A model generated the notes under the pieces. That model saw nothing but the letters and a program-made list of their open reading frames with translations, did no database searches and was not told the origin of the DNA. Source: Mesorhizobium sp. SARCC-RB16n (GTDB taxonomy: Bacteria > Pseudomonadota > Alphaproteobacteria > Rhizobiales > Rhizobiaceae). Taken from it: a stretch of 64,000 nt of DNA. The position numbers and the translations under genes were made by a program. The stretch lies in the NCBI RefSeq assembly GCF_008520305.1, contig NZ_ML703271.1, positions 1 to 64,000 on the forward strand, given 5' to 3'. Shown here in pieces: positions 10,077-28,892 of the stretch; within the stretch, counting starts at the first letter, position 1; each line of letters opens with the position of its first letter.

Positions 10077-10264
10077 ATACGGAGAGGACGGCAGCCCGCC
10101 GCACCGCGCCGGCTCCAGCAGTTGGCTTGCCGGGCAACGATCGAAGCGTCTATCATGCCTAATCAATCGGCGGCTTGGGTGTTCCCGCCGTGCCGGGCCT
10201 CAGCTTTGTCGCGGCGCGTGCCGTTAGGGTCAATTTCAGAACACATGAAGCAGCGCTCCCGCCA

Positions 10265-10978: not shown

Positions 10979-11016
10979 ATCGAATTATCGACATATCTGG
11001 TGGACTCATGCCGTTG

Positions 11017-11442
11017 CTAAACGCACAGCCAGCGGACCTCAAAGTCGTGGTTAGGCTCGATCGTCCCTCGGAATTCGGGCACCGCTCTAATCGCGATAGC
11101 TTCATTCACTCTTAGAGCTTGTTCCACAATGTCCGCCAATTGCTCGTGGCGAGGCCAATCCACGGCAAGCGCGGGATGTCTATCGCCTGTTTGAAGCCTC
11201 CCGTCGGCGCGATGCTCTTGGTATCGGCGCCAGATCAGCCAATCCTCTCTTACGGCAGCCAACTGTCCGTCATCGATGGGTGAAAGCAAGAATACCCGGC
11301 TCCAATCATCGAGCGCATCATCCCATTCGCACCTATAGGCGTATGCTTGGCCGCGATATTCTGCGATGCCGTTTCTAGGCCCGTCGTAATAATCGTGGAC
11401 TGTGAGGACCGGTTCCCATTCGCTGATCGCTTCGCTAGCCAT
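11017..11442 (-). CDS. Conserved hypothetical protein (DYYDGPR type)
   Basis: Small protein of 141 residues with an N-terminal region (EWEPVLTVHDYYDGPRNGIAEY) that I recognise from hypothetical proteins scattered through many bacteria, where VHDYYDGPR is followed by a GxxxYxC-type stretch; here it is RGQAYAYRCEWDDALDDW. It is rich in Trp, Tyr and acidic residues, with no signal peptide or membrane segment. ATG at 11442 puts the motif near the N-terminus, as usual. Codon use is less GC-rich at third positions than in its neighbours and an IS remnant lies just upstream, so acquisition or decay are both possible. Function unknown. Confidence 0.65.
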   Translation of the reverse strand: MASEAISEWEPVLTVHDYYDGPRNGIAEYRGQAYAYRCEWDDALDDWSRVFLLSPIDDGQLAAVREDWLIWRRYQEHRADGRLQTGDRHPALAVDWPRHEQLADIVEQALRVNEAIAIRAVPEFRGTIEPNHDFEVRWLCV

Positions 11443-11914: not shown

Positions 11915-13270
11915 TTGAGCGATGCAATTGCCGACGTTTTGAATTGGCTTGAAAGCCGAAGCGACATCCAGAGCCTGAGGGCCGCGGTGTGCGACCTCAA
12001 CGGCATCATGCGGGGAAAGCGCATCCCGGTCGAACAGGCCCGCAAGGCGCTGGAAGGCAAGCTGCGCATGCCCTATTCGCTGATCGGGCTCGATGTCTGG
12101 GGCGAGGACATCGAAGGCAACAGCCTGGTCTTCTCGACCGGCGATGCCGATGGCCTTTGCCAATGGACGGGACGCGGCATTCTGCCGGTGGAATGGACGG
12201 CGCATCCGACGGCGCTCGTCCCGCTGTGGCTCGCCGACGAGAGCGGCGCGCCCTATCTCGGTGATCCCCGGCGGGCACTGGCCCGCATCCTCGATCGCTA
12301 CAAGGCGCTCGGTCTCACTCCAGTCGCGGCGACCGAACTCGAATTCTACCTGGTCGATCCGCAATCGCAACGGCCGGTCGGACCGGTCTCGCCGGTCACC
12401 GGGCGGCGTCTCGATTCCGACGCGGCGTTGTCGATCGACGAGATCGACGATTTCGAGGCCTTCATCCACGACATCTATGAAGCCTGCCGCGCGCAAGGCA
12501 TTCCTGTCGACACCGCCATCGCAGAAAACGGCGTCGGCCAGTTCGAGATCAACCTGAACCACGTCGCCGACGCCCTGCGGGCAGCCGACGATGCCGTCTT
12601 GTTCAAGCGCACGGTGAAGGGCATTGCCCGCAAGCACGGCTTTGCCGCCTGCTTCATGGCCAAGCCCTATGGCGACCGCGCCGGCAACGGTTTCCATGTC
12701 CATTTCAGCCTGATCGACGGCGACGGGCGCAATGTGTTCGACGACGGCACCGACCAGGGTTCCGACACGATGCGCCATGCCGTGGGCGGGCTGCTGGCGG
12801 CGATGGCCGAAAGCACGCTGGTGTTCGCGCCGCACTTCAATTCCTACCGCAGGCTTCGCCCGCGATCCTATGCACCGACCGCGGTCGCCTGGGGTTACGA
12901 GAACCGCATGGTCGCGATCCGCATTCCCGGCGGCCCGACCGGTGCGCGCCGCATCGAGCATCGTGTCTCGGGAGCCGACGCCAACCCCTATCTCGTGCTT
13001 GCCGCAATACTGGGCGCCGCACTGATCGGCATCGAGAAGCAGATGTCCCCGGGCGACCCGGCGGGGAATGACGGGCAAGGCGTTGCCCCCGCCAAGCTGC
13101 CGCCGGACTGGGCGTCGGCGATCGCGACGTTCGAAGTCGGGACGCATGTGGCGGAGATCTTCCCGGCGATCCTGCGCGACTCCTTCGTCGCCTGCAAACG
13201 CCAGGAATTGAATACATTTGCGCTCAACGTCAGCGACTTCGAGATCGAGACCTATCTCGAAAGCGTCTGA
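11915..13270 (+). CDS. Glutamine synthetase family protein (PuuA/GlnT-like)
   Basis: Enzyme of 451 residues with the glutamine-synthetase beta-grasp (about 15-110) and catalytic domains (about 115-451). Recognisable blocks are ATELEFYLVDP (metal-binding Glu), ENGVGQFEINLNH, NGFHVHFSL, and NRMVAIRIPG followed by RRIEHRVSGADANPYL. This subgroup includes gamma-glutamylputrescine synthetase (PuuA) and other ATP-dependent gamma-glutamyl-amine ligases; it is not the ammonia-assimilating GlnA, since the adenylylation loop typical of GlnA is not evident. The start is TTG at 11915 after AGAGG; no in-frame ATG fits the family N-terminus. There are no polyamine genes next to it, so the amine substrate is unassigned. 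Confidence 0.85.
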   Translation: MSDAIADVLNWLESRSDIQSLRAAVCDLNGIMRGKRIPVEQARKALEGKLRMPYSLIGLDVWGEDIEGNSLVFSTGDADGLCQWTGRGILPVEWTAHPTALVPLWLADESGAPYLGDPRRALARILDRYKALGLTPVAATELEFYLVDPQSQRPVGPVSPVTGRRLDSDAALSIDEIDDFEAFIHDIYEACRAQGIPVDTAIAENGVGQFEINLNHVADALRAADDAVLFKRTVKGIARKHGFAACFMAKPYGDRAGNGFHVHFSLIDGDGRNVFDDGTDQGSDTMRHAVGGLLAAMAESTLVFAPHFNSYRRLRPRSYAPTAVAWGYENRMVAIRIPGGPTGARRIEHRVSGADANPYLVLAAILGAALIGIEKQMSPGDPAGNDGQGVAPAKLPPDWASAIATFEVGTHVAEIFPAILRDSFVACKRQELNTFALNVSDFEIETYLESV

Positions 13271-13275
13271 GACGT

Positions 13276-14136
13276 TTACGTCGAGCGCTCGGCCTTCAGC
13301 ACCGTGACCGCCGCCTCGCTGTTGTGGACATAGTCGTTGGCGTCCGGCTGCTTCTGCACCAGCAGGATGAACAGAAGGTCGGTCAGCGTCAGCTGCGCGT
13401 CGCGCGCGGTGATGGAGGAGGAGCGCGCGCGTTCCTCGTCGGCGATGGTGTAGAGGCGGATATCGGCGACCCGGTTCAGCGGATTGTCGTGCAGGCCGGT
13501 GACGGCGATCACCGTCGTGCCGCGCTTGGCCGCAAGCTCGGCGATGCGCAGGGTTTCGATGCTGGCGCCGGAATAGGAGAGCGCGAACAGCACATCGTCA
13601 GGGCCGAGCGTCGAGGCGTTGGCCATCTGGATGTGGCTGTCGCTGTCGTGCAGCACATTGCGGCCAAGCTTCATGAGCTTGTAGGAGAAATCTCGCGCCA
13701 CCAGCGAGGAGGCGCCGACACCGACCAGATGGATGCGCCGCGCGCCATCCAGCAGCTCCAGCGTCCTGGAGATGATGCGCTCGCTGTTGGCGGCGACGGT
13801 CTGCTGCATCGACAGCAGCTTGCTGCCGATCAGCTTCTTCAGGATGACCGGAAAACCGTCGCCGACCTCGATCGAGCCATGGATGACGCCGGCCGGCACC
13901 TGCCAGTCCTGCGCCTTGGCCTCGCTGACGGCGAGCTTGAGTTCTTGGTAGCTGGCATAGCCGAGCTTCTGGCTGAACTTGACGACGCTCGACTGGCTGC
14001 GGCCGATCTCGGCCGCAAGTGCGGCCGTCGACAGCCGCAGCATCTGGTCGGGGTTGTCGACGATATACCGGCCGATCTCGCGATCGCCGGGCGCCATGCC
14101 GTCGAGCTTCGCATTGATCCTGCTTAAGACGGACAC
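13276..14136 (-). CDS. RpiR/MurR-family regulator (HTH + SIS)
   Basis: Repressor-type regulator of 286 residues: HTH_6 domain at about 1-77 (LSTAALAAEIGRSQSSVVKFSQKLGY) and a SIS sugar-phosphate-binding domain at about 115-250 (IHLVGVGASSLVARDF, FALSYSGASIETLRIAELA). It is divergent from the MurA/GlcNAc-kinase operon, and MurQ follows, so the likely effector is MurNAc-6-phosphate or GlcNAc-6-phosphate as for E. coli MurR. GTG at 14136 is preferred (AGGGA upstream). A TTG start 11 codons earlier would place the initiation site right against the operator at 14170-14184. It converges on the glutamine-synthetase-like gene with a 5-base gap. Confidence 0.9.
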   Translation of the reverse strand: MSVLSRINAKLDGMAPGDREIGRYIVDNPDQMLRLSTAALAAEIGRSQSSVVKFSQKLGYASYQELKLAVSEAKAQDWQVPAGVIHGSIEVGDGFPVILKKLIGSKLLSMQQTVAANSERIISRTLELLDGARRIHLVGVGASSLVARDFSYKLMKLGRNVLHDSDSHIQMANASTLGPDDVLFALSYSGASIETLRIAELAAKRGTTVIAVTGLHDNPLNRVADIRLYTIADEERARSSSITARDAQLTLTDLLFILLVQKQPDANDYVHNSEAAVTVLKAERST

Positions 14137-14169
14137 GGGAATCCCTCGCTCTTCAGACTTGCAGATCAA

Positions 14170-14184
14170 GGAATAAATTATTCC
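14170..14184. promoter_or_regulatory. RpiR/MurR operator, copy 1
   Basis: GGAATAAATTATTCC has perfect 7-bp inverted arms around one base. TTGACA at 14193-14198, eight bases further on, is a good -35 for the murA-like operon. The operator also abuts the regulator gene, so autoregulation is expected. The partner copy is at 16444-16458. Confidence 0.75.
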
Positions 14185-14295
14185 AATTTCGATTGACAGC
14201 CAAGAACGCAGAATTAATTCTCAAACTCGACCGGATCAAAGTGCGGGATTCGGAGCAGGTCGCCGGGTGTGGCGCTCATCATCAAGGTTTCAGCC

Positions 14296-15552
14296 ATGGA
14301 CAGATTGCGGATCGTTGGCGGGCAGAGACTGCAAGGCGCGGTCACCATATCGGGCGCCAAGAATGCCGCCTTGCCGCAGATTGCGGCTGCGCTGCTCAGC
14401 CCCCACCCGCTCGAACTGACCAACTTGCCTGACGTGACCGATGTCGAAAACATGCTCGGCGTGGTGCGGCTTCACGGCGCCGAAATCACTCGGTCCGCCC
14501 ATGCTGCAACGATCGACACAAGTGCCGCCGTTTCCAAGGAGACGTCCTACGATACGGTTCGGAAGATGCGGGCGACGGTGCTCGTCCTGGCGCCCTTGCT
14601 GGCCCGGTTCGGCCATGCCCGGGTTTCGCTGCCGGGCGGTTGCGCGATCGGCGCGCGGCCGGTCGACATGCATGTCGCAGCACTCACCGCACTCGGCGCC
14701 AGGATCGCCATCGAGAACGGCCTGATCGTCGCCTCGGTGCCGAACGGATTGACCGGCACCCGCATCGTGCTCCCCTCGCCATCGGTCGGGGCGACGGAAA
14801 CCGCCATGATGGCGGCGACCGCTGCCAAGGGCGAAACCGAGATCCTCAACGCCGCGCGCGAACCGGAAGTGGCTGACCTCGCCGCTTGCCTCAACGCCAT
14901 GGGCGCGCGCATCGAGGGCGCCGGCACGCACCGCATCCTGATCGCGGGCTACACCAACTGGCACGCCGCCAGGCACGACATCATCCCCGACCGCATCGAG
15001 GCCGGCACCTATGCCATTGCCGCCGCGATCACCGGTGGCCAACTCGAACTGACGCACGCCCGGCTCGAACACATGGCCTCGGTGGTGCAATTGCTGGAGG
15101 CCACCGGCGTCAGCGTCTGGCCGGGCGACCGGGGGCTCATCGTCTCGCGCGACCGGCCGCTCAAGGCAGCCGACCTCACCACAGAACCTTATCCGGGCTT
15201 TCCGACCGACCTGCAGGCGCAGTTCATGGCGCTGATGTGCTGCGCAGAGGGTGCCTCGCTGCTGCGCGAAACCATCTTCGAGAACCGCTTCATGCATGTG
15301 CCCGAACTGATGCGGCTCGGCGCCAACATCAAACTGCAAGGCACCATGGCGCTGGTGCGCGGCGGCGAGAAACTGCACGGCGCGCAGGTGATGGCCACAG
15401 ACCTGCGCGCTTCGGTATCGCTGGTGCTGGCGGCGCTGATCAGTGAAGGCGAGACCATCATCAACCGCGTCTATCACCTCGACCGCGGCTATGAGCAACT
15501 CGACCGCAAGCTGCGCCTGTGCGGCGCCGACATCGAGCGGCTGGGCGCATGA
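14296..15552 (+). CDS. UDP-N-acetylglucosamine 1-carboxyvinyltransferase paralog (MurA-like)
   Basis: Enolpyruvyl transferase of 418 residues, full family length. It would transfer enolpyruvate from PEP to UDP-GlcNAc, the first committed step of peptidoglycan synthesis, in the cytoplasm. The catalytic set looks intact: Lys in SGAKNAALP (about 22), catalytic Cys116 in [38 protein letters not shown] and YHLDRGYE. What is unusual is the location: it opens a MurNAc-catabolic operon behind an RpiR operator and overlaps the GlcNAc kinase start by ATGA, so it is probably a second MurA and not the housekeeping copy. ATG at 14296 gives the canonical N-terminus (MDRLRIVGG). Confidence 0.88.
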
Positions 15553-16427
15553 GCGGCGACGCGATTTATTTTCTCGGCGTCGATGGCGGCGGCACCGGTT
15601 GCCGCGCCCGCCTCGAGGACGCGCAAGGCATGGTGCTGGGACAGGGCCTGTCCGGCCCGGCGACGACGCGGCTCGGCATCGAGGCAGCCTGGGCCTCGAT
15701 CGCGAAAGCCTTCGGCGCGGCGGTCGATGAAGCGGGTTTCGCACCAGCCGAAACCGCCCGCATCCATGCCGGCATCGGCCTTGCCGGCATCGGCCGCAAA
15801 GGCGCGCTGGAGGCGTTGCGGGCAATAGCGCATCCCTTTGCCAGCATCGATTTCGTCAGCGACGGCGTCGGTGCCTGTCTTGGCGCGCATTCCGGTCAGG
15901 ACGGCGCCATCGTCGTTGCCGGGACAGGCTCGATCGGCCTCGGCTTTGTCGAGGGCCGCGACCTGCGCGCCGGCGGCTACGGGTTTCCGATCTCCGACGA
16001 GGGCAGCGGCGCCGACCTTGGACTGAAAGCCGTGCAGCTGGCGCTGCGCGCCCATGACGGCCGGCACGAACGGACGGCGCTGCTGGCGGAGGTCATGCAA
16101 CGCTTCGCGGGCGACCCTATGGAGGCCGTCGCCTGGATGGACCGCGCCAGCGCCACGGACTATGCCGCACTTGCACCCATGGTGATGCGCCATGCCGACC
16201 AGGGTGACCCTGTCGGACGCCGCATCGTGCAAGGTGCCGCCGAGCAGATCGACACGCTTGTGCGGGTACTGTTCGAAAAAGGCGCGCCGCGCGTGACCTT
16301 GCTGGGCGGCCTCGCCAGCCCGCTCGAGCCCTGGCTTTCCCCTGATGTGCGCCGCCGCCTGAAGCCCGCTGACGGCGACGCCGTGTCCGGCGCGATCATT
16401 CTTGCCAAGAGGTCGGTTTGCGGGTGA
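15549..16427 (+). CDS. N-acetylglucosamine kinase-like (BadF/BadG/BcrA ATPase family)
   Basis: Cytoplasmic sugar kinase of 292 residues in the ASKHA fold. The phosphate-1 motif FLGVDGGGTGCRARL is at about 8-22, a second block GTGSIGLGF at about 126-134, and GYGFPISDEGSGADLG at about 144-159, which is typical of GlcNAc kinases. It would phosphorylate GlcNAc (or GlcN/MurNAc) at O-6 with ATP, feeding amino-sugar catabolism alongside MurQ. Its ATG overlaps the stop of the MurA-like gene (ATGA), implying translational coupling. The operator-controlled MurQ transcript starts in the 170-base gap that follows. Confidence 0.85.
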   Translation: MSGDAIYFLGVDGGGTGCRARLEDAQGMVLGQGLSGPATTRLGIEAAWASIAKAFGAAVDEAGFAPAETARIHAGIGLAGIGRKGALEALRAIAHPFASIDFVSDGVGACLGAHSGQDGAIVVAGTGSIGLGFVEGRDLRAGGYGFPISDEGSGADLGLKAVQLALRAHDGRHERTALLAEVMQRFAGDPMEAVAWMDRASATDYAALAPMVMRHADQGDPVGRRIVQGAAEQIDTLVRVLFEKGAPRVTLLGGLASPLEPWLSPDVRRRLKPADGDAVSGAIILAKRSVCG

Positions 16428-16443
16428 TACGCTGGCAACAGTA

Positions 16444-16458
16444 GGAATAAAATATTCC
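16444..16458. promoter_or_regulatory. RpiR/MurR operator, copy 2
   Basis: GGAATAAAATATTCC has 6-bp perfect arms and differs from copy 1 at two bases. TTGACG (16468-16473) follows at nearly the same distance (9 versus 8 bases) as in copy 1, so the two promoters share an architecture and should be co-regulated. Confidence 0.75.
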
Positions 16459-16597
16459 AAATCTCTGTTGACGGTGTGAATATCAAATTCTAAAAGGTTA
16501 ATAAAGAGAAGCTGCGATGACGGACCCAGGTCTGTTTGCACTGGTTGCCCATCGGGCCGTGCCGGGCGCCGTGCAGCAGAATTTTGAAAGCGCTGGG

Positions 16598-17521
16598 ATG
16601 ACCGAGCAAGGGTTGATGTCTGAGCTGGATCGGCTGGTTTCCGAGGGCCGGAACCCAAGGACCGTCGACATCGACCTGCTGCCGACCATCGACGTCCTGC
16701 GCAGGATCAATGACGAGGACCGGCTTGTCCCGGCAGCCATCGAAAAGGTCCTGCCGGAAATCGCCGCCGCGGTGAACCGCATCGTGCTCGCCTTCCAGAA
16801 AGGCGCGCGGCTTGTCTATATCGGCGCCGGCACCAGCGGCCGGCTTGGCGTGCTCGACGCTTCGGAATGCCCGCCGACATTCGGCGTGCCCGAAGGCATG
16901 GTGGTCGGCCTGATCGCCGGTGGGTCCGACGCGCTGGTGCGCTCGCTCGAAGGCGCCGAGGATGACCCGAAGATGGGCGCGAAGGCCTTGCAGGACATCA
17001 CGCTCACACCTGATGACGTGGTGGTCGGCATCGCGGTCAGCGGACGCACGCCCTATGTGGTCGGCGGCCTGCTCTATGCCAAGCAGATCGGCGCGACGAC
17101 AGTCGCGCTGTCCTGCAATCCGGCATCGACCATTGCCGGCATCGCCGACATCGCCATCTCGCCTGTCGTCGGCCCCGAAGTGCTCACCGGCTCGACGCGG
17201 CTGAAGTCGGGAACCGCGCAGAAACTGGTGCTCAACATGCTGACCACGGCCTCGATGATCCGCATCGGCAAGAGCTACCAGAATCTGATGGTCGACCTGA
17301 ACCCGTCGAACAGGAAGCTGGTCGCCCGCGCGATCAGGATCGTCATGCAGACGACCGGTTGTACCGCGCCGCAGGCGCGACAGGCGCTCGACCGGACCGG
17401 CAATGATGTCAAGCTGGCGATCCTGGTGACCATCACCGGCCTCGACGTCGAGGCGGCGCGGGCCGCTCTGGTCAAGGCCGGAGGGTTCCTGCGAAAGGCG
17501 ATCAGGGACGAAGCGACCTGA
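16598..17521 (+). CDS. murQ: N-acetylmuramic acid 6-phosphate etherase
   Basis: Cytoplasmic SIS-domain lyase of 307 residues that splits MurNAc-6-phosphate into GlcNAc-6-phosphate and D-lactate. Family blocks: [14 protein letters not shown] near the N-terminus, [19 protein letters not shown], and the signature [20 protein letters not shown] followed by FGV. The catalytic-Glu region is SLEGAEDD, with [11 protein letters not shown] and [12 protein letters not shown] further on. The C-terminal [12 protein letters not shown] block is also present. The ATG at 16598 matches the family start; an in-frame ATG 27 codons upstream (16517) would give an extra N-terminal tail and cannot be excluded. It is controlled from the operator 140 bases upstream and followed by the importer genes. 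Confidence 0.93.
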
Positions 17522-17536
17522 GGCCGGATAAGACGT

Positions 17537-17583
17537 GACGGCGTGAAGCCGCTTTAGACAAGACGGCGTCAAGCCGCATAGAC
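17537..17583. repeat. Tandem 25-base repeat upstream of importer operon
   Basis: GACGGCGTGAAGCCGCTTTA (17537-17556) and GACGGCGTCAAGCCGCATAG (17562-17581) are tandem near-copies with a 25-base period, both continuing into AGAC/GAC. Each unit contains a small GGC/GCC hairpin. They lie in the 148-base gap between murQ and the importer operon. A further inverted pair, TTCCAA / TTGGAA (about 17594-17617), follows. Confidence 0.6.
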
Positions 17584-17669
17584 TGGGCCGATATTCCAAA
17601 GCATGTGTGTCTTGGAAGCGGTCCACAGAAACTGCAAGGCATCAAGTCAAGTCATAATGGGAGACGAAA

Positions 17670-19187
17670 ATGGTAAGGCACCTCACAAGAACACTGCTTT
17701 CGGGCATTACCCTTGCCGCGATGCTCGGCATCGCGACAGTTTCGACGCAGGCGGCGACGCTGCATATGGCCTGGTCGCAGGACGCCACCGGGCTTGATCC
17801 GCACAAGCAGACGGCGTTCTCGTCGCTGCGGCTTTTGGAGCTCATCTATGAACCGCTGGTGCGGGTCGACGCCAGTCTGCAGATCATTCCCGCCATCGCC
17901 ACCTCCTGGGAATTCTCCAAGGACGGCAAGGAACTGACCTTCAAGCTTGATCCCAAGGCGAAATTCCAGGACGGCGCGGCGGTTACCTCCGCCGACGTCA
18001 AGGCATCGTTCGAGCGTATCCTCGACGAGAAGACGGGAGCAGCGGCGCGCGCCAACTTCCTGTCGATCGCCAGCATCGACACGCCGGATGCAGCGACCGT
18101 CGTGTTCCACCTCTCGCAACCCGACGTGCCAATCCTGACGGCGATGAGCGACGTCAACGCGGCCATCGTTCCGGCGGCTGAAATCAAGGCCGGCTCGATC
18201 GGCACCAAGACGGTCGGCTCCGGCCCGTTCAAGCTCGACAAATGGGACCCCAACGCCAAGGAAGTCTTGAGCGCCAACAAGAACTGGGCCGGGGGTGCTA
18301 CCGGCGTCGACGGCATCGAGATCAGCGTGCTGCCCGACGAGGCGGCGATCCTCGCCGCCATGCGTACCAAGCAGATCGATTTCGCCCTGCTCAACGATCC
18401 GCTCGTCGCCACGCTGGTGCCGAAAGAAGCCAACCTGCAATTGAACCGTGTACCGGTGCTTGCCTATAACGTGCTGCAGCTCAACCCGTCGCGCAAGCCG
18501 ATGACCGAGCTCAAGGTGCGCCAGGCTATCTCCTGCGCCATCGACCGGCAGGAGGTGCTGGACACTGCCGCGCTGGGCGAAGGCAAGGTCACCGGGCCGC
18601 TGACCATCCCGGCGTTCGCCACCGACCCGAGCCAGTTGTTCTGCTACAAGCGCGATGTCGAAAAGGCCAAGAAGCTGATGGCCGAGGCCGGCTTTGCCGA
18701 CGGCTTTTCGGCGACCGTGATCGGCGCCACCGGCGAGCCGCCGACGGCGGCGGCGGAAGCCCAGGTCATCCAGTCGCAACTGGCTGAAATCGGCGTCAAG
18801 CTCGACATCAAGATGATGGAGCTCAACGTTTATGTCGATGCCTGGCTGAAGGGCGATTTCGACATGGCGATCGCGCTCAACGGCGGCCGCGCCGATCCCT
18901 ATACGATGTACAACCGCTACTGGACCAAGGCTGGCAATCTGCAGAAAGTAGCGAACTACATCGACGATACGCTGGACAGCCAGATGCAGCAGGGCCGCGC
19001 CGAGACCGATCCGGCCAAACGCAAGGCGATCTTCGCCGCGTTCGAGAAGCACCTCGCCGAAATGTCGCCCTGGATCTGGCTCTACACCTCCTACAGCTAT
19101 ACGGCCCAGCAGAAGAACATCGCGCGCTTCGTGCCGACGCCGACCGGCACGCTGTTCAGCCTGAGCAAGGTTACCATCAAGCAGTAG
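17670..19187 (+). CDS. Peptide-type ABC substrate-binding protein (SBP family 5)
   Basis: Periplasmic binding protein of 505 residues, DppA/OppA family. A signal peptide covers about 1-28 (RTLLSGITLAAMLGIATVSTQAA). The mature protein starts TLHMAWSQDATGLDPHKQTAF, has the family block LIYEPLVRVD, and then WEFSKDGKELTFKL. It lies directly behind murQ and ahead of two permeases, a fused ATPase, a serine hydrolase and AnmK. The likely ligand is therefore a cell-wall fragment (anhydroMurNAc, GlcNAc-anhMurNAc or a muropeptide) and not a plain dipeptide; that is context inference. Confidence 0.88.
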   Translation: MVRHLTRTLLSGITLAAMLGIATVSTQAATLHMAWSQDATGLDPHKQTAFSSLRLLELIYEPLVRVDASLQIIPAIATSWEFSKDGKELTFKLDPKAKFQDGAAVTSADVKASFERILDEKTGAAARANFLSIASIDTPDAATVVFHLSQPDVPILTAMSDVNAAIVPAAEIKAGSIGTKTVGSGPFKLDKWDPNAKEVLSANKNWAGGATGVDGIEISVLPDEAAILAAMRTKQIDFALLNDPLVATLVPKEANLQLNRVPVLAYNVLQLNPSRKPMTELKVRQAISCAIDRQEVLDTAALGEGKVTGPLTIPAFATDPSQLFCYKRDVEKAKKLMAEAGFADGFSATVIGATGEPPTAAAEAQVIQSQLAEIGVKLDIKMMELNVYVDAWLKGDFDMAIALNGGRADPYTMYNRYWTKAGNLQKVANYIDDTLDSQMQQGRAETDPAKRKAIFAAFEKHLAEMSPWIWLYTSYSYTAQQKNIARFVPTPTGTLFSLSKVTIKQ

Positions 19188-19214
19188 CCGCTACAGGCGA
19201 GAGGACTTCTTCGC

Positions 19215-20174
19215 GTGACCTATCTCTTGCGACGACTGGCGACGTTTCCTCTCGTCCTGCTTGGCGTATCCATCCTGGTCTTCGTCGCGATCCGGATGGT
19301 GCCTGGCGATTCGATCACGGCGATGCTGGGAACCGAGGCCGGCCTGCTGACGCCGGCGCAACGCGATTCGCTCGCCGCCTATTTCGGGATCGACCAACCC
19401 TGGTTCGTTCAGTACTGGCGCTGGATCGGCGGCATCCTGCACGGCAATTTCGGCATCTCCGTCACCTATGGCAGGCCGGTTCTCGACGTCATCCTCGAGC
19501 GCTTCCCGCTAACCCTTGAGCTGGCCGTGCTGTCGATGATCATCGCGCTTCTCGTCGGCATGCCGGCCGGCATCTACGCCGCCACGCACAACGAAAAACT
19601 GTCCGATCTCGGCGTGCGCGTCGCCGCCATGATCGGCCAGTCGACGCCGAGCTTTGTGCTTGGCCTGTTGATCATCTACACGCTGTCGGCCGGCTTCGGC
19701 GTGCTGCCGGCGATGGGCGAATTCGCGCCGCTCTGGCAGGATCCCTTGCGCAATCTCAGCCAATTGATCCTGCCCGCGATCACGCTCGGCTTCGCCTTCG
19801 CGGCGTCCGTCACCCGCATAGCGCGCTCGGCGATGCTCGACGTGTTGAGCGACGACTATGTGCGCACAGCCCGCAGCAAGGGCGCCTCGGCGCGCAGCGT
19901 CATCTGGCGGCACGCTTTGCCCAATGCGCTGATCCCGGTCGTGACGCTGAGCGGCATCGAGTTCGGCTATCTCCTGGGCGGCGCCGTCATCGTCGAGCAG
20001 ATCTACGCCCTGCCCGGCCTCGGACGCATGGTGCTCGACGCCATCCTCCAGCGCGACTACGCGCTGGTGCAGGGAACCGTGCTGTTCATCGCCTTCAACT
20101 TCATGATCGTCAATCTCCTGGTCGACCTCGCCTATGTCGCGCTCGATCCGCGCATCCGGCTGGGGGAACAGTGA
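19215..20174 (+). CDS. Dpp-type ABC permease (DppB-like)
   Basis: Inner-membrane permease of 319 residues. The N-terminal motif MTYLLRRLATFPLVLLGVSI is typical of DppB/OppB, followed by the large periplasmic stretch with GDSITAMLG and IDQPWFVQYWRW. Five more membrane segments follow, and the coupling loop reads DYVRTARSKGASARSVIWRHALPN at about 215-235. It starts with GTG at 19215 after a purine-rich site (GAGAGGAC). It pairs with the next permease, whose gene it touches. Confidence 0.92.
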   Translation: MTYLLRRLATFPLVLLGVSILVFVAIRMVPGDSITAMLGTEAGLLTPAQRDSLAAYFGIDQPWFVQYWRWIGGILHGNFGISVTYGRPVLDVILERFPLTLELAVLSMIIALLVGMPAGIYAATHNEKLSDLGVRVAAMIGQSTPSFVLGLLIIYTLSAGFGVLPAMGEFAPLWQDPLRNLSQLILPAITLGFAFAASVTRIARSAMLDVLSDDYVRTARSKGASARSVIWRHALPNALIPVVTLSGIEFGYLLGGAVIVEQIYALPGLGRMVLDAILQRDYALVQGTVLFIAFNFMIVNLLVDLAYVALDPRIRLGEQ

Positions 20175-21013
20175 TGCGCATCCTGCGTGCCATTTTCGGC
20201 CATGGCAGCGGCCGCATCGGCGGTGTCATCGTCGGCATCTATCTCGTGCTCGCCATCCTCGGCCTGCTCGGGCTGACGCCGCACAATCCAATCACGCAGT
20301 ACCGTATCGACCGGCTTCATGCGCCCAGCGCCGCTTACTGGATGGGGACCGACCTGTTCGGCCGCGACGTCGCCAGCCGCCTGATGGCGGGCATCGGCCA
20401 GTCCTTTACGGTCGCCTTCTTCTCGGTGGCATTCGCGGCGCTTGCCGGGACAGTCCTGGGGTTGGCCGCCGCCTGGCTTGGGCGCCGCTGGGACGGCGTG
20501 CTGATGCGGATCATGGATGTGCTGCTGGCCTTCCCGGCGATCCTTCTGGCGCTGCTCATCGTCACCGTCGCCGGACCGGGCACATGGACCAGCGTCGTTG
20601 CCATCGGCATCGTCTACACGCCGATCTTCACGCGGGTGGTGCGCGGCCCGGCCCTGTCGCTCAAGACACGCGAATTCGTCGACGCCGCGCGCACCTTCGG
20701 CAGCAGTTCAAGCTACATCGTCACGCGGCACCTTTTGCTCAACCTCGTGGCGCCGCTCACCGTGCAGGTGACGCTGGCGCTGGCCTGGGCGCTGCTGACC
20801 GAAGCCGGCTTGAGCTTCCTCGGCCTCGGCACGCAGCCGCCCGCCGCGTCGCTCGGCCTGATGCTGAGCGATAGCCGCAATTTGATGGAGACGGCACCTT
20901 GGCTGATGATCTTCCCAGGCCTGGCGATCATGATCAGCATCCTCGGCTTCAACCTGCTGGGCGATGCCTTGCGCGACATCCTCGACCCGAAGATGCGGAG
21001 AGCGTTGGCATGA
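20174..21013 (+). CDS. Dpp-type ABC permease (DppC-like)
   Basis: Second inner-membrane permease, 279 residues. It has an N-terminal membrane segment (about 13-35), then HWMGTD-like YWMGTDLFGRDVASRLMAGIG, the hallmark of DppC/OppC proteins. The coupling loop reads EFVDAARTFGSSSSYIVTRHLL, and the protein ends with the usual GDALRDILDPKMRRA. ATG at 20174 overlaps the last base of the preceding stop, and a GTG one codon earlier is the alternative. The end overlaps the ATPase gene by ATGA, so all importer genes are translationally linked. Confidence 0.92.
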   Translation: MRILRAIFGHGSGRIGGVIVGIYLVLAILGLLGLTPHNPITQYRIDRLHAPSAAYWMGTDLFGRDVASRLMAGIGQSFTVAFFSVAFAALAGTVLGLAAAWLGRRWDGVLMRIMDVLLAFPAILLALLIVTVAGPGTWTSVVAIGIVYTPIFTRVVRGPALSLKTREFVDAARTFGSSSSYIVTRHLLLNLVAPLTVQVTLALAWALLTEAGLSFLGLGTQPPAASLGLMLSDSRNLMETAPWLMIFPGLAIMISILGFNLLGDALRDILDPKMRRALA

Positions 21014-22758
21014 CCCCGCTCCTGTCGATCTCTGATCTGCGCGTCGGCTTCGGCCGCAATCCGAAAGCCAATGAGGTGGTGCGCGGCGTCAGTTTCGAAA
21101 TCGCCGATGGCGAGACGCTGGCCATTGTCGGCGAAAGCGGCTCGGGCAAATCGGTCACGGCATTGTCGATCAACCGGCTCGTCGATTTTGGTGGCGGCCG
21201 CATCACCGGTGGCTCGATGAAGCTCAAGCGGCGCGACGGCAGCCTCTTCGACCTGACGGGCGCGACCGAGGCCAAACTGGCCGGCATTCGCGGTGCGGAA
21301 ATCGGCATGATCTTCCAGGAGCCGATGACATCGCTCAACCCGGTACTGACCATCGGCACCCAGATCGAGGAATCGTTCCGCCTGCATCGAGGGCTGACCG
21401 GCCGGCAAGCTACCGCGGCAGCCAGGGACGCGCTCGACCGCGTGCGCATTCCCGACGCCGCGCGACGGCTGAAATACACACCCAACCAGTTGTCCGGCGG
21501 CATGCTGCAGCGGGTGATGATCGCCATTGCACTCGCCTGCAACCCCCGTCTGCTGATCGCCGACGAGCCGACGACGGCGCTCGACGTCACGGTGCAAGCG
21601 CAAATCATGGCGCTGCTGGCCGAGTTGAAACGCGAAAGCGGCATGTCGATGGTCTTCATCACGCACGACATCGGCCTGGTCGCCGGCATCGCCGACAAGG
21701 TGATGGTGATGCAGAACGGGCAGGCTGTCGAACAGGGCGAACTGAACCAGATCCTCGACAGCCCCCAGCATCCCTACACACAGCATCTGCTGCTGGACGT
21801 GCCGCATTTCGCCAGCGGCCGGGCGACACGCGCGGACGGACAGCGCGACAAGGGCGAGAACACGCAACCGGCCTTGAAGGTCGATGGTCTCGTCGTGCGG
21901 TTTCCGCTCAAGAGCAGTTTCTTCAGCCGCGCCACCGGCGCGGTACACGCGGTCGACGGCGTCGATTTCGACCTGATGCAAGGCGAGACGCTGGCTATCG
22001 TCGGCGAGAGCGGTTCGGGCAAATCGACCACCGCCAAGGCGCTTCTCGGGCTGGTGCGATCGACGCGTGGCAGCTTCTCCGTCGCCAGCCGAAAGGCGTC
22101 GGCGGAGCGCAGCGCCAAACCCTTGCAGATGGTGTTCCAGAACCCATACGCTTCGCTCAACCCAAGGCTGACCATCGAGAGCATTCTGGCCGAACCGGTG
22201 ATCGCCACCGGTGGTCGCGTGGATGCCGAAACGGGGGCCAGAATGGCGAGCCTGCTCGAACGCGTCGGCCTGCCCAAGAACAGCCTGGAGCGATATCCGC
22301 ATGAATTCTCCGGCGGTCAGCGGCAAAGGCTGTGTATTGCCCGAGCACTGATGCTCAACCCGTCCGTCGTCGTTCTCGACGAAGCGGTGTCGGCGCTCGA
22401 CGTCTCGGTGCAGGCCAAGGTGCTGGAGTTGCTGGTCGACCTGCAGCGCGAGTTTGGGCAGGCCTACCTGTTCATCTCGCACGACATGGCGGTGGTCGAA
22501 CGGATTGCCCACCGCATCGCCGTCATCTATGCCGGCCAGATCGTCGAGATTGGCGACGCGCGGTCCGTGCTGTCGAAGCCGAAACATTCTTATACGAAGA
22601 AGCTGATCGCCGCCGTTCCGACCATCGACCGGCGGCACGAGCATTTCGAGATCGACACGCGCCAGGTGCCCTCACTGGTGCGCCCGCAGGGGTTTGAACC
22701 GGCACCGGCGAGATGGGAGCGGTTCGGAGGGGATCACATGGCAAGGGCGGAGGCGTAA
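21010..22758 (+). CDS. Fused double-ATPase ABC protein (DppD-DppF type)
   Basis: A single 582-residue chain carrying both nucleotide-binding domains of a peptide-type importer, as in GsiA/YejF. Domain 1 (about 1-265) has Walker A GESGSGKS at 41-48, FQEPMTSLNP, signature LSGGMLQRV, Walker B LLIADEP and His in ITHDIG. Domain 2 (about 290-560) has Walker A GESGSGKS near 332-339, FQNPYASLNPR, signature FSGGQRQRL, VVVLDEA and ISHDMA. Both sites look catalytically complete. It energises the two permeases upstream. The fused form is shared with the muropeptide/peptide transporter YejF and glutathione transporter GsiA, which supports a cell-wall-peptide or similar ligand but does not prove it. Confidence 0.93.
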   Translation: MTPLLSISDLRVGFGRNPKANEVVRGVSFEIADGETLAIVGESGSGKSVTALSINRLVDFGGGRITGGSMKLKRRDGSLFDLTGATEAKLAGIRGAEIGMIFQEPMTSLNPVLTIGTQIEESFRLHRGLTGRQATAAARDALDRVRIPDAARRLKYTPNQLSGGMLQRVMIAIALACNPRLLIADEPTTALDVTVQAQIMALLAELKRESGMSMVFITHDIGLVAGIADKVMVMQNGQAVEQGELNQILDSPQHPYTQHLLLDVPHFASGRATRADGQRDKGENTQPALKVDGLVVRFPLKSSFFSRATGAVHAVDGVDFDLMQGETLAIVGESGSGKSTTAKALLGLVRSTRGSFSVASRKASAERSAKPLQMVFQNPYASLNPRLTIESILAEPVIATGGRVDAETGARMASLLERVGLPKNSLERYPHEFSGGQRQRLCIARALMLNPSVVVLDEAVSALDVSVQAKVLELLVDLQREFGQAYLFISHDMAVVERIAHRIAVIYAGQIVEIGDARSVLSKPKHSYTKKLIAAVPTIDRRHEHFEIDTRQVPSLVRPQGFEPAPARWERFGGDHMARAEA

Positions 22759-22836
22759 TGGACGGTACGCTGGAATACGGGGGGTCGGCGGGACAGAGGG
22801 GCGCCGTAGAGCGCTACCTCTCCGAAGGAGGCGGCA

Positions 22837-23841
22837 TTGAGTAGCCTCTCCCGGCTCTTCGATCGAGCGTTCGCATCCCTCGTAGCGGCAGTGACCGCCA
22901 AGCGAATCCCCGGCGGCGTGCTCGGCATTGTCGACAGGAATGGCGAACGTATCGTCCGGTCCATCGGCTCGGCGCAGCTCGTGCCGAAGCCGCGGCCGAT
23001 GCGGGAGGACACCTGGTTCGACCTGGCGTCCTTGACCAAGGTGATCTTCACCACGCCGCGCATCCTGGCGCTGGCGAAGGACGGCATCATCGACCTCGAC
23101 GCGCCGCTGACCTCGGTGCTTCCCGACCTTCGCCAGTATGACGCGAACGCCTGGGAGCGGAAGGTGACCTTCCGCCAGTGTCTCGGCCACCAGACACCCT
23201 TCCCGGCCGTCGAGCCGATCTACACCTACGGACGCGACCCCGAGCTGCTGCGCGCCTTCCTCCTGCAGCGCGAATGGCGGGCGCGCGACCCGGTTTACTC
23301 CGACATCAACTTCATCCTGCTCGGCTTTGCGCTCGAGCGGCTGTCAGGCAAGAGCATGCGCGACCTGGAGCCTGGCCCTGGCTTTGCCTGGTCCACGGAA
23401 CCCGATGCCGCCGCAGCGACCGAGGACTGCACCTGGCGCCACCGCGTGCTGTCGGGCGAGGTCCATGACGACAATTGCTCGGCGCTGCAGGGCGCGGGTC
23501 ATGCCGGCCTGTTCGGCACGGCCGCTTCGGTGCTCGATTTCGCGCAAGGGCTTTTAGACGGCAGCGGCGCATCCAAGCGCTCAATCGCGCTGATGCGCGA
23601 GCCGTTGTCCGCGACTCGCACCCATGGTTGGGAGCGCCCCTATGAGGGCTGGTCCGGCGGAGCCATGTGCAGCCCGGGAACGATCGGCCATACCGGCTTT
23701 ACCGGCACCGGACTGTGGATCGACTTCGACAAGGGCAAGGCTTGGACCTTGCTCACCAACCGCATTCATCCGACACGTCACTTCGACAGCGGCATCGTCT
23801 CGCTGCGGCAGGCGGTCGGCGATCTCGTCAACAGGGACTAG
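22837..23841 (+). CDS. Serine hydrolase, beta-lactamase/class C PBP family
   Basis: Protein of 334 residues with the SxxK serine-hydrolase fold. The nucleophile motif SLTK is at 65-68 (FDLASLTKV), the second motif YSDIN is near 152 (DPVYSDINFILLGFALE), and the third is HTGFTGTG near the C-terminus. No signal peptide or membrane segment is visible, so it should be cytoplasmic, unlike true beta-lactamases or PBPs. Members of this family occur in MurNAc-utilisation clusters of Bacillus (ybbE/amiE), where an amidase role on MurNAc-peptides was proposed; a similar role here is inference. The start is TTG at 22837, supported by GAAGGAGG eight bases upstream. Confidence 0.85.
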   Translation: MSSLSRLFDRAFASLVAAVTAKRIPGGVLGIVDRNGERIVRSIGSAQLVPKPRPMREDTWFDLASLTKVIFTTPRILALAKDGIIDLDAPLTSVLPDLRQYDANAWERKVTFRQCLGHQTPFPAVEPIYTYGRDPELLRAFLLQREWRARDPVYSDINFILLGFALERLSGKSMRDLEPGPGFAWSTEPDAAAATEDCTWRHRVLSGEVHDDNCSALQGAGHAGLFGTAASVLDFAQGLLDGSGASKRSIALMREPLSATRTHGWERPYEGWSGGAMCSPGTIGHTGFTGTGLWIDFDKGKAWTLLTNRIHPTRHFDSGIVSLRQAVGDLVNRD

Positions 23842-23850
23842 GAAGCGACC

Positions 23851-24966
23851 ATGGAACCAATCTGGGCCGTCGGCCTGATGACCGGCACCGTGCTTGACGG
23901 CAACATCGACGTGGCGCTGATCAAGACCGACGGCGAGCGGATCGACGATTTCGGCACCTACCGGCTGATGCCTTATCCCCTGTCGATCCGCTCCTTGCTG
24001 GAGGAGACGCTGACGGCGGCACGGGCCTGGAATTTTGTCGGACCGGAACCGGCGATCTTCCGCAAGGCGGAAGAGGCACTGACGCGTGCCCAGTCGGCGG
24101 CGGTCAAGGAATTGGTCGAGGGCCACGGCATGACGATGGCCGAGATCGGCGTCGTCGGATTTCACGGCCAGACCGTGCTGCATCGCGCGCCGCAGGTCGG
24201 ACGGCTCGGCCAGACCCGGCAGCTCGGCGACGGCGAACTGATGCATGCCTTGCTGGGCACCAAGGTTGCCTATGATTTCCGTTCGGCCGACATGCGGGCT
24301 GGCGGACAAGGCGCGCCCTTGGCCGCCGCCTATCACACCGCGCTGATGCGCGGCGCCGGCGCCAGTGGGGAGGTGGCCGTGCTCAATCTCGGCGGCGTCG
24401 CCAACATCACCTGGTGGGACGGCGCCGACAATGTCATCGCCTTCGATACCGGCCCCGCCAACGCGCCACTCAACGATTTCATCAAGTCGAAAGGACTCGG
24501 CGAAATGGACCGCGACGGCGCGCTTGGTCGCGCGGGCCTGGTGGACGAAGCCCGGCTCGCCAAGCTGTTGCAGCATCCCTATCTGACCAAGCTGTATCCA
24601 AAGTCACTCGACCGTTTCGACTTCGGCGCGGCCATGGCCGACGGGCTGAGCGCCGAGGATGGCGCGGCCTTGCTCACCGCCTTCACCGCGTCGGCTGTCG
24701 GCAAGGCGCTCGACCTTCTGCCAAGCCGGCCGAAGAAGCTGGTGGTCAGCGGCGGCGGGCGCCACAACCCGACGATGATGGCGATGCTGGCCAGCCGCGC
24801 CGGCGTCGAGGTGGTGCTGGCCGAAAGCCTCGGCTGGAGCGGCGACGCGGTGGAGGCGGAGTGTTTTGCTTTCCTCGCCGTGCGCGTCCTGCGCGGCCTG
24901 CCGATCAGCTTCCCGAGCACGACCGGCGCACCGCAGCCGATGCGTGGCGGAAAGCTGGCGGGCTGA
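23851..24966 (+). CDS. anmK: Anhydro-N-acetylmuramic acid kinase
   Basis: Cytoplasmic kinase of 371 residues that opens the 1,6-anhydro ring of anhMurNAc while phosphorylating it, giving MurNAc-6-phosphate, the MurQ substrate. Motifs: [17 protein letters not shown] at the N-terminus (the GT-x-x-DG phosphate loop), [58 protein letters not shown] and [12 protein letters not shown]. It lies 9 bases after the serine hydrolase and ends the MurNAc cluster. Together with MurQ it forms the E. coli-type catabolic route, not the AmgK/MurU salvage route known from Pseudomonas. Confidence 0.94.
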
Positions 24967-25395
24967 TCAATCCGTCGACAGCTTCTTCTGCAGGAAGATG
25001 CGGCTGCGCCCTACGGGAAAGTCAGCAAGCGATCCGAAGGGCTGATAGCCCTGGCGCTGATAGACCTTGGCGGCGTTCGGGCTGAATGTGTCGATCAACG
25101 CGCCATGGCAGCCGCGCGACGCCGCCTCCTGTTCGGCCGCGTCGAGCATCTGGCCCGCCATGTGCTGGCCGCGCAGCCTTTCGTCGACCCACAGCCACTG
25201 CACGTAGAGCCAGCCCCAGGCGGTGTAACCCGAAATGCCGGCGACCACCGCACCGTCCTCGTCGCGTACGAACACCGCCAGCGCTTTCCTCTGGGAAGGC
25301 CCGACATCGCTGTCGTTGAACGCCGTCAGCCGTTCACTGAGAAAGGCGAGTTCTTCCGGCAGGGGATTTGCCGTCGTTTCAAGTGTCGTTTTCAT
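24967..25395 (-). CDS. GNAT-family N-acetyltransferase
   Basis: Small cytoplasmic acetyltransferase of 142 residues. The acetyl-CoA binding region is at about 65-85 (VDERLRGQHMAGQMLDAAEQEA, the R/Q-x-x-G-x-G/A loop in the form RGQHMAG), with the usual late motif AAKVYQRQGYQPFG. The acceptor is unknown. It converges directly on anmK with no bases between the two stop codons, and its role need not be linked to either flanking pathway. The start ATG at 25395 lies 29 bases after the dctD-like gene. Confidence 0.85.
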   Translation of the reverse strand: MKTTLETTANPLPEELAFLSERLTAFNDSDVGPSQRKALAVFVRDEDGAVVAGISGYTAWGWLYVQWLWVDERLRGQHMAGQMLDAAEQEAASRGCHGALIDTFSPNAAKVYQRQGYQPFGSLADFPVGRSRIFLQKKLSTD

Positions 25396-25424: not shown

Positions 25425-26777
25425 TCAGGAGGGGCGGAAGTCGGATGCGGCGATGCCATAGCGCTTGAGCTTGTCGTAGAACGTCTTGCGCGGCACGCCG
25501 AGAGCTTCGATAGCGCCGCGCACGTCGCCGCCATGATCGCGCAGCGCGTCGCGGATGAGTTGCGCCTCGTATTGCCCGACCCGCTCGGGCAGCGCAGCGG
25601 CAGGCTCCGGCAGCCGCGCGATTGCCCTGGCTTCGTCATCGGGACCAAGGCCGAGCGCGACGCGATCGGCGAAATGGGCGAGTTCGCGCACGTTGCCCGG
25701 CCAATCATGGGACTGGAGATGATTGCTCACGGCGGCATTCGCCTTGGCAACGGGCCGGCCGAAGCGCTCCGCCGCCTTGCCGAGGAAATGGCCGAACAGC
25801 ATCGGAATATCGCCGCGTCGCTCGCGCAGGGGCGGGATGCGCAGCGTCACCACGTTCAGGCGAAAATAGAGATCCTCGCGGAAATCGCCGCGCTGCTCGG
25901 GCCGACCGAGATCGACCTTGGTCGCCGCGACGACCCGGAGATCGAGGCGCCGTGTCTCGTTCGAGCCGAGCGGGGTGAGGCTCCGCGTCTCCAGCAGCCG
26001 CAAGAGCTTGACCTGCAGCGCCGGCGGCATGGATTCGATCTCGTCGAGGAACAGCGTGCCTCCGCTGGAGTGCTCGACGCGGCCGATCCGCCGCCGCTGC
26101 GCGCCCGTGAAAGCTCCGGCCTCATGCCCGAACAGCTCGCTCTCGATGACGGTCTCCGGCAGAGCGCCGCAGTTCAGCGCCACGAAGGGCTTTGCGCGCC
26201 GCCGGCCCCACCGGTGCAGGAGGTCGGCCACGACTTCCTTGCCGGTTCCAGTCTCCCCTTCCACCAGCACGTCGACATCCATGTCGGCGATCTGGCGCAA
26301 GGTCTCGCGCAAGCGCCTTATGGCGGGGGCTTCGCCTATCAGCGGCAGGCTATCGGCGGCAAGGGCGGCGGCTTCGCGCAGTCGCCGGTTCTCCATGACC
26401 AGCCGCCGCTTCTCGCTCGCCCTTCTCAGCGCCTCGACAAGACGATCGCTGGCATAAGGTTTTGGAATGAAATCATAGACACCGTCCTTGAGCGCGGCGA
26501 CCGCGAGATCGACATCGCCATGCCCGGTGACCAGGATCACCGGTAAGTCCGCGTCGATCGCCTTGACGCGGTCGAAGAGCTGCAAGCCGTTCATGCCGGG
26601 CATGCGGATATCGCTGACGACCACACCCTCGAAGTCCCTGTCGACGACACCAAGCGCCGCCTCGGCGGCGTCGAGCGCGATCACCGTGAAACCGGCAAGT
26701 TCGAGCAGTTGCGTGGTGGCATGCAGCAGGTCGGCATCGTCATCGACGAGCGCCACCAGCCCTGATCCCTGCGTCAT
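25425..26777 (-). CDS. dctD: C4-dicarboxylate response regulator DctD (sigma-54 activator)
   Basis: NtrC-family transcription factor of 450 residues. The receiver domain (about 5-120) has phospho-acceptor Asp56 in SDIRMPG. The AAA+ domain (about 145-370) has Walker A GETGTGKE at 174-181 and the sigma-54 contact loop GAFTGA at 221-226. A Fis-type HTH lies at the C-terminus ([21 protein letters not shown]). Phosphorylated by DctB, it binds upstream sites and activates sigma-54 RNA polymerase at dctA. Its ATG overlaps the dctB stop by 4 bases, so sensor and regulator are co-translated. The divergent dctA promoter with matching sites is in this window. Confidence 0.93.
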
Positions 26778-28552: not shown

Positions 28553-28676
28553 CCAACGGCCGCCGCGCGCTACCGCTTCTTGCAGCAGGCCGCGGCCAGC
28601 AAACCCTGGGAATTCGCTATCGATGCGCTGTCGCGGCGTCGGCCCTCTCCTTTGCTCCCCGGCTTTGGCCCCAGTC

Positions 28677-28726
28677 TAATGCGAAATTCCGCCAGGGCAA
28701 ATATGGCCTGTGCGGAAATCCGCACA
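28677..28726 (+). promoter_or_regulatory. Tandem DctD-type upstream activator sites
   Basis: TGTGCGGAAATCCGCACA (28709-28726) has perfect 8-bp inverted arms around AA. A degenerate second copy, TGCGAAATTCCGCCA (about 28680-28694), lies some 30 bases upstream. Paired sites of this form bind DctD upstream of rhizobial dctA. They sit about 63-110 bases before the -24/-12 element, on the usual side. Confidence 0.75.
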
Positions 28727-28788
28727 CGCCTCCGCCGAAAGCAGGGCGGAAGTGGCTGAAACCCCAGGATTCCAGCCTAGTCGTCGTC

Positions 28789-28804
28789 TGGCACGGCGCT
28801 TGCA
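28789..28804 (+). promoter_or_regulatory. Sigma-54 promoter of dctA
   Basis: TGGCACGGCGCTTGCA matches the -24/-12 consensus TGGCACG-N4-TTGCA exactly. It lies 89 bases before the dctA ATG and downstream of the DctD-type palindromes, so dctA transcription should need RpoN and phosphorylated DctD. Confidence 0.88.
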
Positions 28805-28892
28805 AAAGTCCTTGCAGCGGCGGGCGACCGGAACGCCGCGATGGGAGAAGTCACGCAGGGCGGGTTCCGTCCATCCGGCCAGGGAGAGTTCG

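Follow-up and report, generated by a model that had tools for sequence, protein, structure and literature searches.

A MurR-type-controlled gene cluster proposed to import muropeptides and salvage MurNAc in Mesorhizobium and its relatives

The stretch of DNA analysed here (the window) comprises the first 64,000 nucleotides of contig NZ_ML703271.1 of Mesorhizobium sp. SARCC-RB16n, and at positions 13276-24966 it carries a cluster of ten genes that we consider, with a probability of about 70%, to be a module for the import of muropeptides and the salvage of N-acetylmuramic acid (MurNAc) under the control of a MurR-type regulator. It is most likely that some relatives of legume symbionts use this regulated cluster to import and dismantle cell-wall fragments. 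Family-model searches identify a divergent MurR/RpiR-type regulator and nine co-oriented genes on the plus strand. These encode a MurA paralog, an amino sugar kinase, the MurNAc-6-phosphate etherase MurQ, the four components of an ATP-binding cassette (ABC) importer, a serine hydrolase of family S12 and the anhydroMurNAc kinase AnmK. An original prediction, made from the letters of the window, had named these ten genes and their families, and all are present. Its description of a self-contained MurNAc salvage module with an ABC importer and an amidase-like cytoplasmic S12 enzyme is supported by comparison, apart from the word ‘self-contained’: NagZ, correctly said to be lacking from the window, is encoded elsewhere, above the cut-off of its model, in eight of the ten relatives that were searched, including all five genomes with the full cluster. 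Two putative operators, a lytic transglycosylase gene downstream, the replacement of the importer by AmpG in some loci and the loss of a housekeeping anmK are additions to that prediction.

The pathway envisaged is as follows. The binding protein and ABC transporter would import MurNAc- or anhydroMurNAc-peptides, with or without N-acetylglucosamine (GlcNAc), and the cytoplasmic S12 hydrolase would cut the bond between MurNAc and L-Ala. NagZ would remove GlcNAc; AnmK, and perhaps the BadF kinase too, would make MurNAc-6-phosphate; and MurQ would convert this to GlcNAc-6-phosphate and D-lactate. The formation of MurNAc-6-phosphate by AnmK and the MurQ reaction are established chemistry of these families. 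The BadF kinase, judging from its family, would phosphorylate GlcNAc. MurNAc-6-phosphate would signal to the regulator, which would act at the two operators and, more speculatively, recovered GlcNAc would be driven, through the extra MurA, towards uridine diphosphate (UDP)-MurNAc again.

Two samples bear on the distribution of the cluster. The first consists of 88 loci, eight chosen from plasmid matches and the best 80 from a profile scan of a genome collection with the hydrolase; neighbours were judged within the available flanks, some of which end at contig ends. All ten genes are present in 14 of these loci (L001, L006, L008-L015, L019, L020, L022 and L054), of which L001 is from the laboratory strain Rhizobium tropici CIAT 899. 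A tblastn search of plasmid records with the hydrolase and the binding protein finds relatives about 80% identical in the Rhizobium tropici group, and the window is nearest to Mesorhizobium loci, its binding protein being 96-97% identical to those of L009, L010 and L054. The second sample consists of 297 genomes, taken as Rhizobiaceae after their named members. An ortholog of the binding protein (71-97% identical) occurs in 21 of them, here called carriers. MurQ above its cut-off occurs in 23, namely all 21 carriers and two of the 276 others, an association judged by a Fisher test in which kinship is ignored; in every carrier it is separated by 71-192 bp from the gene for the binding protein. 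A weaker MurQ-like match, below cut-off, is found in 108 more genomes (131 of 297 in all, E 1e-60 or better). The recurrence of the ten genes in 14 of 88 loci, and of MurQ beside the importer in 21 of 297 genomes, argues that the gene order is not due to chance.

The importer consists of a solute-binding protein of the SBP_bac_5 family (17670-19187; PF00496), the N-terminus of which resembles a signal peptide when judged by eye, permeases of the DppB/NikB type (19215-20174; PF00528) and the DppC/NikC type (20171-21013; PF00528), and two fused ABC ATPase domains in one open reading frame (ORF; 21010-22758; PF00005 in two stretches). The binding protein and both permeases fall below all curated cut-offs: the former gives 170 bits against NikA (cut-off 393), the first permease 256 against NikB (447) and 333 against Opp2B (350), and the second permease 241 against NikC (358). 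The best model for the ATPase is GsiA (671 bits, cut-off 1077). It might be supposed from such scores that an ordinary importer of peptides, opines or metals sits in a MurNAc operon without sharing a substrate with it; the best matches of the binding protein and permeases are to models of the NikA, GsiB, DppA and Opp type. Moreover, the ATPase, when the scores of its two domains are summed, passes the nickel and opine ATPase models NikD (428 bits, cut-off 319), NikE (373, cut-off 333), CntD (404, cut-off 380) and CntF (406, cut-off 385), which also weighs against muropeptide import. We nevertheless regard an unrelated importer of this kind as very improbable, given that all 21 carriers have MurQ next to the importer, that like neighbourhoods contain SBP_5 binding proteins only 31-34% identical to that of the window (Devosiaceae, Microvirga and others) or 24-25% identical (Deinococcus), and that in sphingomonads an AmpG-family permease occupies the same setting.

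The binding protein itself departs from the peptide-binding pattern of DppA. Its Gly406, a residue shared by all 17 of the 17 binding proteins that were aligned, stands opposite Asp436 of E. coli DppA, the residue named in the title of entry 8z1z. This Asp contacts the amine (N-terminus) of the peptide in DppA. Arg383 of DppA maps to a loop that is missing from the window's protein. Among the structural neighbours of its AlphaFold model (predicted local distance difference test score, pLDDT, 80) are a protein that binds sialic acid and others that bind sugar-opines. Fold comparison was, however, discarded as an indicator of substrate, since many classes tie, for the binding protein and the hydrolase alike; no structure of YejA or YepA is among the matches listed for the binding-protein fold, which is no evidence of absence.

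The S12 hydrolase (22837-23841; PF00144) has no signal peptide. It has the fold of its family and the motifs S65xxK68, Y154SD and H285TG, the motif residues being invariant in 14 of 14 sequences, as expected of an amidase of the AmiE type; AmiE of Bacillus subtilis is a protein of the beta-lactamase family. The nearest structural neighbours of the hydrolase model (pLDDT 89.8) tie between esterases, class C beta-lactamases and one D-amino acid amidase, and for this reason the proposed amidase role rests on gene context. The best NCBIfam match is PBP4B (59.6 bits, below the cut-off of 385). The contexts are consistent with one another: the hydrolase adjoins AnmK or MurQ in loci of Rhizobiaceae, Devosiaceae, Microvirga and Deinococcus, and 17 of the 88 loci encode it as a fusion with a GH3 domain, which in three cases that were checked matches NagZ (NF003740) at 133-157 bits, below the cut-off of 207. 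In a further 13 loci (12 named sphingomonads and one other proteobacterium) an AmpG-family transporter, which is a single protein of the major facilitator superfamily and not an ABC system, takes the importer's place beside the hydrolase, with no ABC genes in view; the one checked scores 320 bits against TIGR00901 (cut-off 350). From clustering, 11 of these 13 loci also contain a DacB/S13 relative, and one has an annotated NagA and D-lactate dehydrogenase together with a SIS protein nearest to NagB-II, below cut-off; the annotation of L003 includes a D-lactate dehydrogenase. Thus, the cytoplasmic hydrolase fits a muropeptide (MurNAc-L-Ala) amidase, and the ABC system most likely imports muropeptides or anhydromuropeptides, a reading based on these contexts (MurQ and AnmK, the NagZ-like fusion, AmpG) and on a binding protein that lacks the aspartate of DppA.

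Alternatively, the ABC system might import free sugars (anhydroMurNAc, MurNAc or GlcNAc-anhydroMurNAc) while the hydrolase does other work, such as peptide trimming or ester removal. AnmK, MurQ and the kinase have only sugars as their substrates, and the sialic acid and sugar-opine binders among the structural neighbours of the binding protein would suit such cargo, but this would leave a signal-less, amidase-like enzyme of the same unit with nothing to do. The location of the hydrolase in other loci bears on the same question. GH3 fusions are found in seven of nine loci with a sodium symporter, and in none of the 32 with an ABC binding protein or the 13 with AmpG. A hydrophobic N-terminal stretch, scored with a simple hydropathy window on ORFs that may have been begun too far upstream, is present on the hydrolase in nine of nine symporter loci, three of 32 ABC loci (L027, L046 and L083; at least 2.0) and none of the 13 AmpG loci. 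This fits a correspondence between import of whole muropeptides with the amidase inside the cell, and import of free sugars with the amidase outside. It should be noted that the symporter, AmpG and ABC loci are phylogenetically distinct, so that kinship confounds the pattern and it is not independent evidence; this, like the ATPase scores above, tells against our interpretation. On balance, free-sugar import appears unlikely.

The regulator (13276-14133, minus strand) combines HTH_6 and SIS domains (PF01418 and PF01380). Its ORF as listed extends to 14169; the probable start is a GTG at 14133, the position of the ATG in relatives. It scores 178 bits against the MurR equivalog model PRK15482, below the cut-off of 408. 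The pattern GGAATWWWWWATTCC occurs exactly twice in the window and not once in 100 shuffles. One occurrence, putative operator 1 (GGAATAAATTATTCC; 14170-14184), lies in the gap between the divergent murR and murA genes, with a TTGACA box eight bases downstream; the other, putative operator 2 (GGAATAAAATATTCC; 16444-16458), is in front of murQ, with TTGACG nine bases downstream. In 14 genomes chosen from the 21 carriers, an exact-pattern survey gave 18 sites in 12 genomes, and the reversed pattern, used as control, gave none. Seventeen of the sites are inside the module, ten in the regulator-murA gap and seven in front of murQ; ten of the 14 genomes have the former, seven the latter and five both. 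G217 and G061 have no exact site, and the single match outside the module is in G227 (L176, G227:C1:6185850). G050 and G146 have a split module, with about 20 kb of the same contig between its regulator-murA and murQ halves; the regulator-murA half has retained its site. The two putative operators suggest that murA-kinase and murQ-to-anmK are separate transcription units and do not form a single operon, and we read the regulator as a dedicated local one for both. By analogy with MurR of E. coli, MurNAc-6-phosphate is its likely effector.

The original prediction had most genes overlapping at their ends, which overstates the matter. Several listed ORFs appear to start too early, and the sequence together with the starts of family matches points to 14296 for MurA, 15549 for the kinase, 16598 for MurQ and 21010 for the ATPase; on this basis the nine co-oriented genes overlap at three of their eight junctions (murA/kinase and those joining the first permease, the second permease and the ATPase), by four bases each. 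MurA, MurQ and AnmK are above their curated cut-offs. The MurA paralog (14296-15552) is a full-length MurA (TIGR01072, 543 bits, cut-off 393) with the active-site Cys in the motif GGCAIGARP. It belongs to a clade of its own, is about 53% identical to the housekeeping MurA, and is accompanied by the latter, a second full MurA, in five of five full-cluster genomes. The idea that the murQ-linked MurA proteins of Acidobacteria share their origin with those of rhizobia was rejected, as the two fall apart in the tree. MurQ (16598-17521) is a bona fide member of its family (TIGR00274, 412 bits, cut-off 302), as in MurR-MurQ operons.

The kinase (15549-16427; PF01869), predicted to be a GlcNAc kinase, is indeed an amino sugar kinase of the BadF/BcrAD type. 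Its nearest curated model, NagK_SO3507 (NF046058), gives 263 bits, below the cut-off of 370 (the kinase, too, is below all curated cut-offs), and it matches PDB 1zc6 at 2.8e-47 and the MurNAc/GlcNAc kinase 8zo3 at 1.7e-21. The published criteria for specificity are that MurK positions 133-135 have no bulky Glu or His and that no Asn precedes the catalytic Asp (PMC10465942). Read by hand, the window's kinase has GGY and Ser at these positions. Human NAGK has GGW where the window's kinase has GGY. The positions are compatible with MurNAc, and the enzyme could also be a MurNAc/GlcNAc kinase. In six Microvirga loci (L027, L028, L030, L033, L036 and L040; one checked) a second BadF-type kinase gene directly follows MurQ, and five of these six loci have a NagK-like kinase in addition; the second kinase is a candidate MurNAc kinase.

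AnmK (23851-24966) matches PF03702 at 238 bits (cut-off 24) and NF007141 at 483 (cut-off 352), and its subfamily is 37-44% identical to the housekeeping AnmK whose gene is linked to tyrS. Comparison of the genomes of relatives indicates that this subfamily has replaced the latter in carriers. AnmK is found in 279 of the 297 Rhizobiaceae genomes, almost always as a single copy, and in 30 of 30 module-free genomes, chosen from anmK matches and therefore indicating where the gene lies when it is present, it adjoins tyrS. In 20 of the 21 carriers, the sole AnmK detected is that of the module, encoded 4.6-5.0 kb away from the gene for the binding protein; in the remaining genome, G168, in which the module is near a contig end, no AnmK was found. 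No tyrS-linked anmK was detected in any of the 21 within 4.7-5.2 kb upstream, and tyrS and at least one flanking gene are kept. As the two AnmK types are only 37-44% identical, one gene has been exchanged for another rather than relocated. In a tree built from TyrS and three of its neighbours, the module and the tyrS-linked anmK each change seven times, and a paired test that considers kinship finds six supported independent pairs, all opposite in direction (p=0.03, where the lowest p attainable with six pairs is 0.031 and the tree is a quick one). Two genomes with MurQ and no importer were left out of that test. G060 (L100) has MurQ directly before a module-type AnmK and no tyrS-linked anmK, with neither the binding protein nor an exact operator within 20 kb; G082 has kept the tyrS-linked gene.

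These findings bear on whether the module serves nutrition only, allowing its host to eat the muropeptides of other bacteria with no part in recycling its own wall. Its patchy distribution, its location on large plasmids in several Rhizobium records, its own regulator and the lack of NagZ would all suit such a scavenger. It is not always plasmid-borne, however, being on a 6.3-Mb contig in G227, and a purely nutritional role is hard to reconcile with a module AnmK that is the sole AnmK found in 20 of 21 carriers while the tyrS-linked copy is missing from all of them; we think it quite unlikely. Rather than being a merely optional nutrient island, the module would have taken over the cell's own anhydroMurNAc step, because no AnmK other than its own was found in carriers. 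The simplest account is a muropeptide importer joined to a MurNAc-6-phosphate route of the E. coli type under a MurR-type switch; the AnmK that it brought would have rendered the older copy superfluous, or would not have tolerated it under that switch. We suggest tentatively, as a possibility somewhat short of even odds, that capture of the module repeatedly evicts the housekeeping anmK, the recycling of wall sugars in these rhizobia thereby moving as a unit from a standing route to a MurR-switched, ABC-fed, MurQ-based one; if so, the module is a kit that can be transferred to replace part of the peptidoglycan recycling pathway. The repeated loss of tyrS-linked anmK makes it testable whether the recycling flux of carriers runs through the module. 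A separate idea, that carriers have lost the anabolic murU route, is unsupported, as a MurU-like match (below cut-off) is present in 18 of the 21 carriers, G171, G232 and G286 being those without, and in 259 of the 276 other genomes.

No description of this operon was found by title or abstract in the open-licence literature; PMC3750425, in its available part, treats UDP sugar and peptidoglycan synthesis and not the operon of the window. Each enzyme family is already known, and so are related layouts and transporters. In E. coli the arrangement is murR / murQ-murP-yfeW, with PBP4B encoded in the murQ operon (PMC5061867). The window shares with it a divergent MurR-type regulator (here with a putative operator in the gap), MurQ, an S12 protein and a transporter of its own; in contrast, the E. 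coli transporter MurP belongs to the phosphotransferase system whereas that of the window is of the ABC type, and the available part of that source describes no AnmK, MurA or kinase in the operon (PMC5061867). The B. subtilis cluster murQ-murR-murP-amiE-nagZ-ybbC, in which AmiE is a MurNAc-L-Ala amidase (PMC5061867), likewise brings together MurQ, a MurR-type regulator and such an amidase (proposed in our case), but there AmiE and NagZ act outside the cell and MurP imports the free sugar, whereas the window's hydrolase has no signal peptide. RmNag3 of Rhodothermus, a fusion of GH3 and beta-lactamase domains (PMC6987092), has, by its description, the same domain pairing as the 17 fused loci; it is fused and has a signal peptide, unlike the free, signal-less hydrolase of the window.

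The closest functional precedent is YejBEF-YepA, an ABC system for muropeptide import in Agrobacterium tumefaciens, a member of the Rhizobiales that lacks AmpG (PMC9790009). The ABC route separate from AmpG and MurP uptake that the original prediction put forward is thus not new as a principle. The transporters are different: the window's first permease scores 117 bits against YejB (cut-off 445), as opposed to 333 against Opp2B, and its ATPase 543 against YejF (cut-off 834), less than its 671 against GsiA. The available part of the source mentions no murQ operon alongside YejBEF-YepA (PMC9790009). Neither the five full-cluster genomes nor the Maritalea and Devosia genomes checked have a match to AmpG above cut-off. 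As far as our literature searches show, the new elements are the presence of this type of importer in a murQ unit, the paired putative operators and the replacement of anmK on repeated occasions. If our interpretation is correct, this would be a second ABC muropeptide system of AmpG-less Rhizobiales besides YejBEF-YepA, one that is dedicated, regulated and tied to MurQ. The identity of the importer counts because muropeptides matter for beta-lactamase induction and for the sensing of bacteria by hosts.

Several further genes lie near the module or its relatives. Six loci of the R. tropici type have a gene for an SLT lytic transglycosylase after anmK (by clustering, with one checked by Pfam): L001 (14217-15167), L013 (12220-13185), L008 (17406-18356), L014, L015 and L052. 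It is directly downstream except in L008, where it is 3 kb on. SLT lytic transglycosylases produce anhydromuropeptides. In Mariluticola, the run of genes that contains the ABC permeases includes, two genes away from them, one whose product passes the DgcA model and gives 335 bits against the L-Ala-D/L-Glu epimerase model (cut-off 343). L007 (plasmid p5 of R. oryzihabitans) has a shortened hydrolase stretch at 9971-11186, followed by a Tn3-type recombinase and a transposase, and its regulator-murA-kinase-murQ block adjoins a sugar-type ABC system.

In the window itself, a GNAT acetyltransferase gene (24967-25395, minus strand) converges on anmK; its product has weak generic family matches only, and relatives lie near anmK in ten of the 88 loci (Rhizobiaceae and Devosiaceae). 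Agrobacterium de-N-acetylates wall sugars at anhydroMurNAc ends (PMC10838918), and the GNAT protein might re-acetylate such sugars. On the other side, a glutamine-synthetase-like gene (11915-13270, plus strand), with no known link to the module, ends six bases from the regulator stop; its product gives 215 bits against a gamma-glutamylputrescine synthetase model (cut-off 650). An FtsZ-family gene (6544-8163, minus strand) encodes 539 amino acids with GTPase and C-terminal domains. Finally, at 25425-30221, beside the module, an SDF-family symporter is encoded together with a Cache-like histidine kinase and a response regulator of the sigma54 type, a layout like that of DctB/DctD/DctA; three Mesorhizobium loci and several from sphingomonads have a related symporter in the vicinity of the hydrolase.

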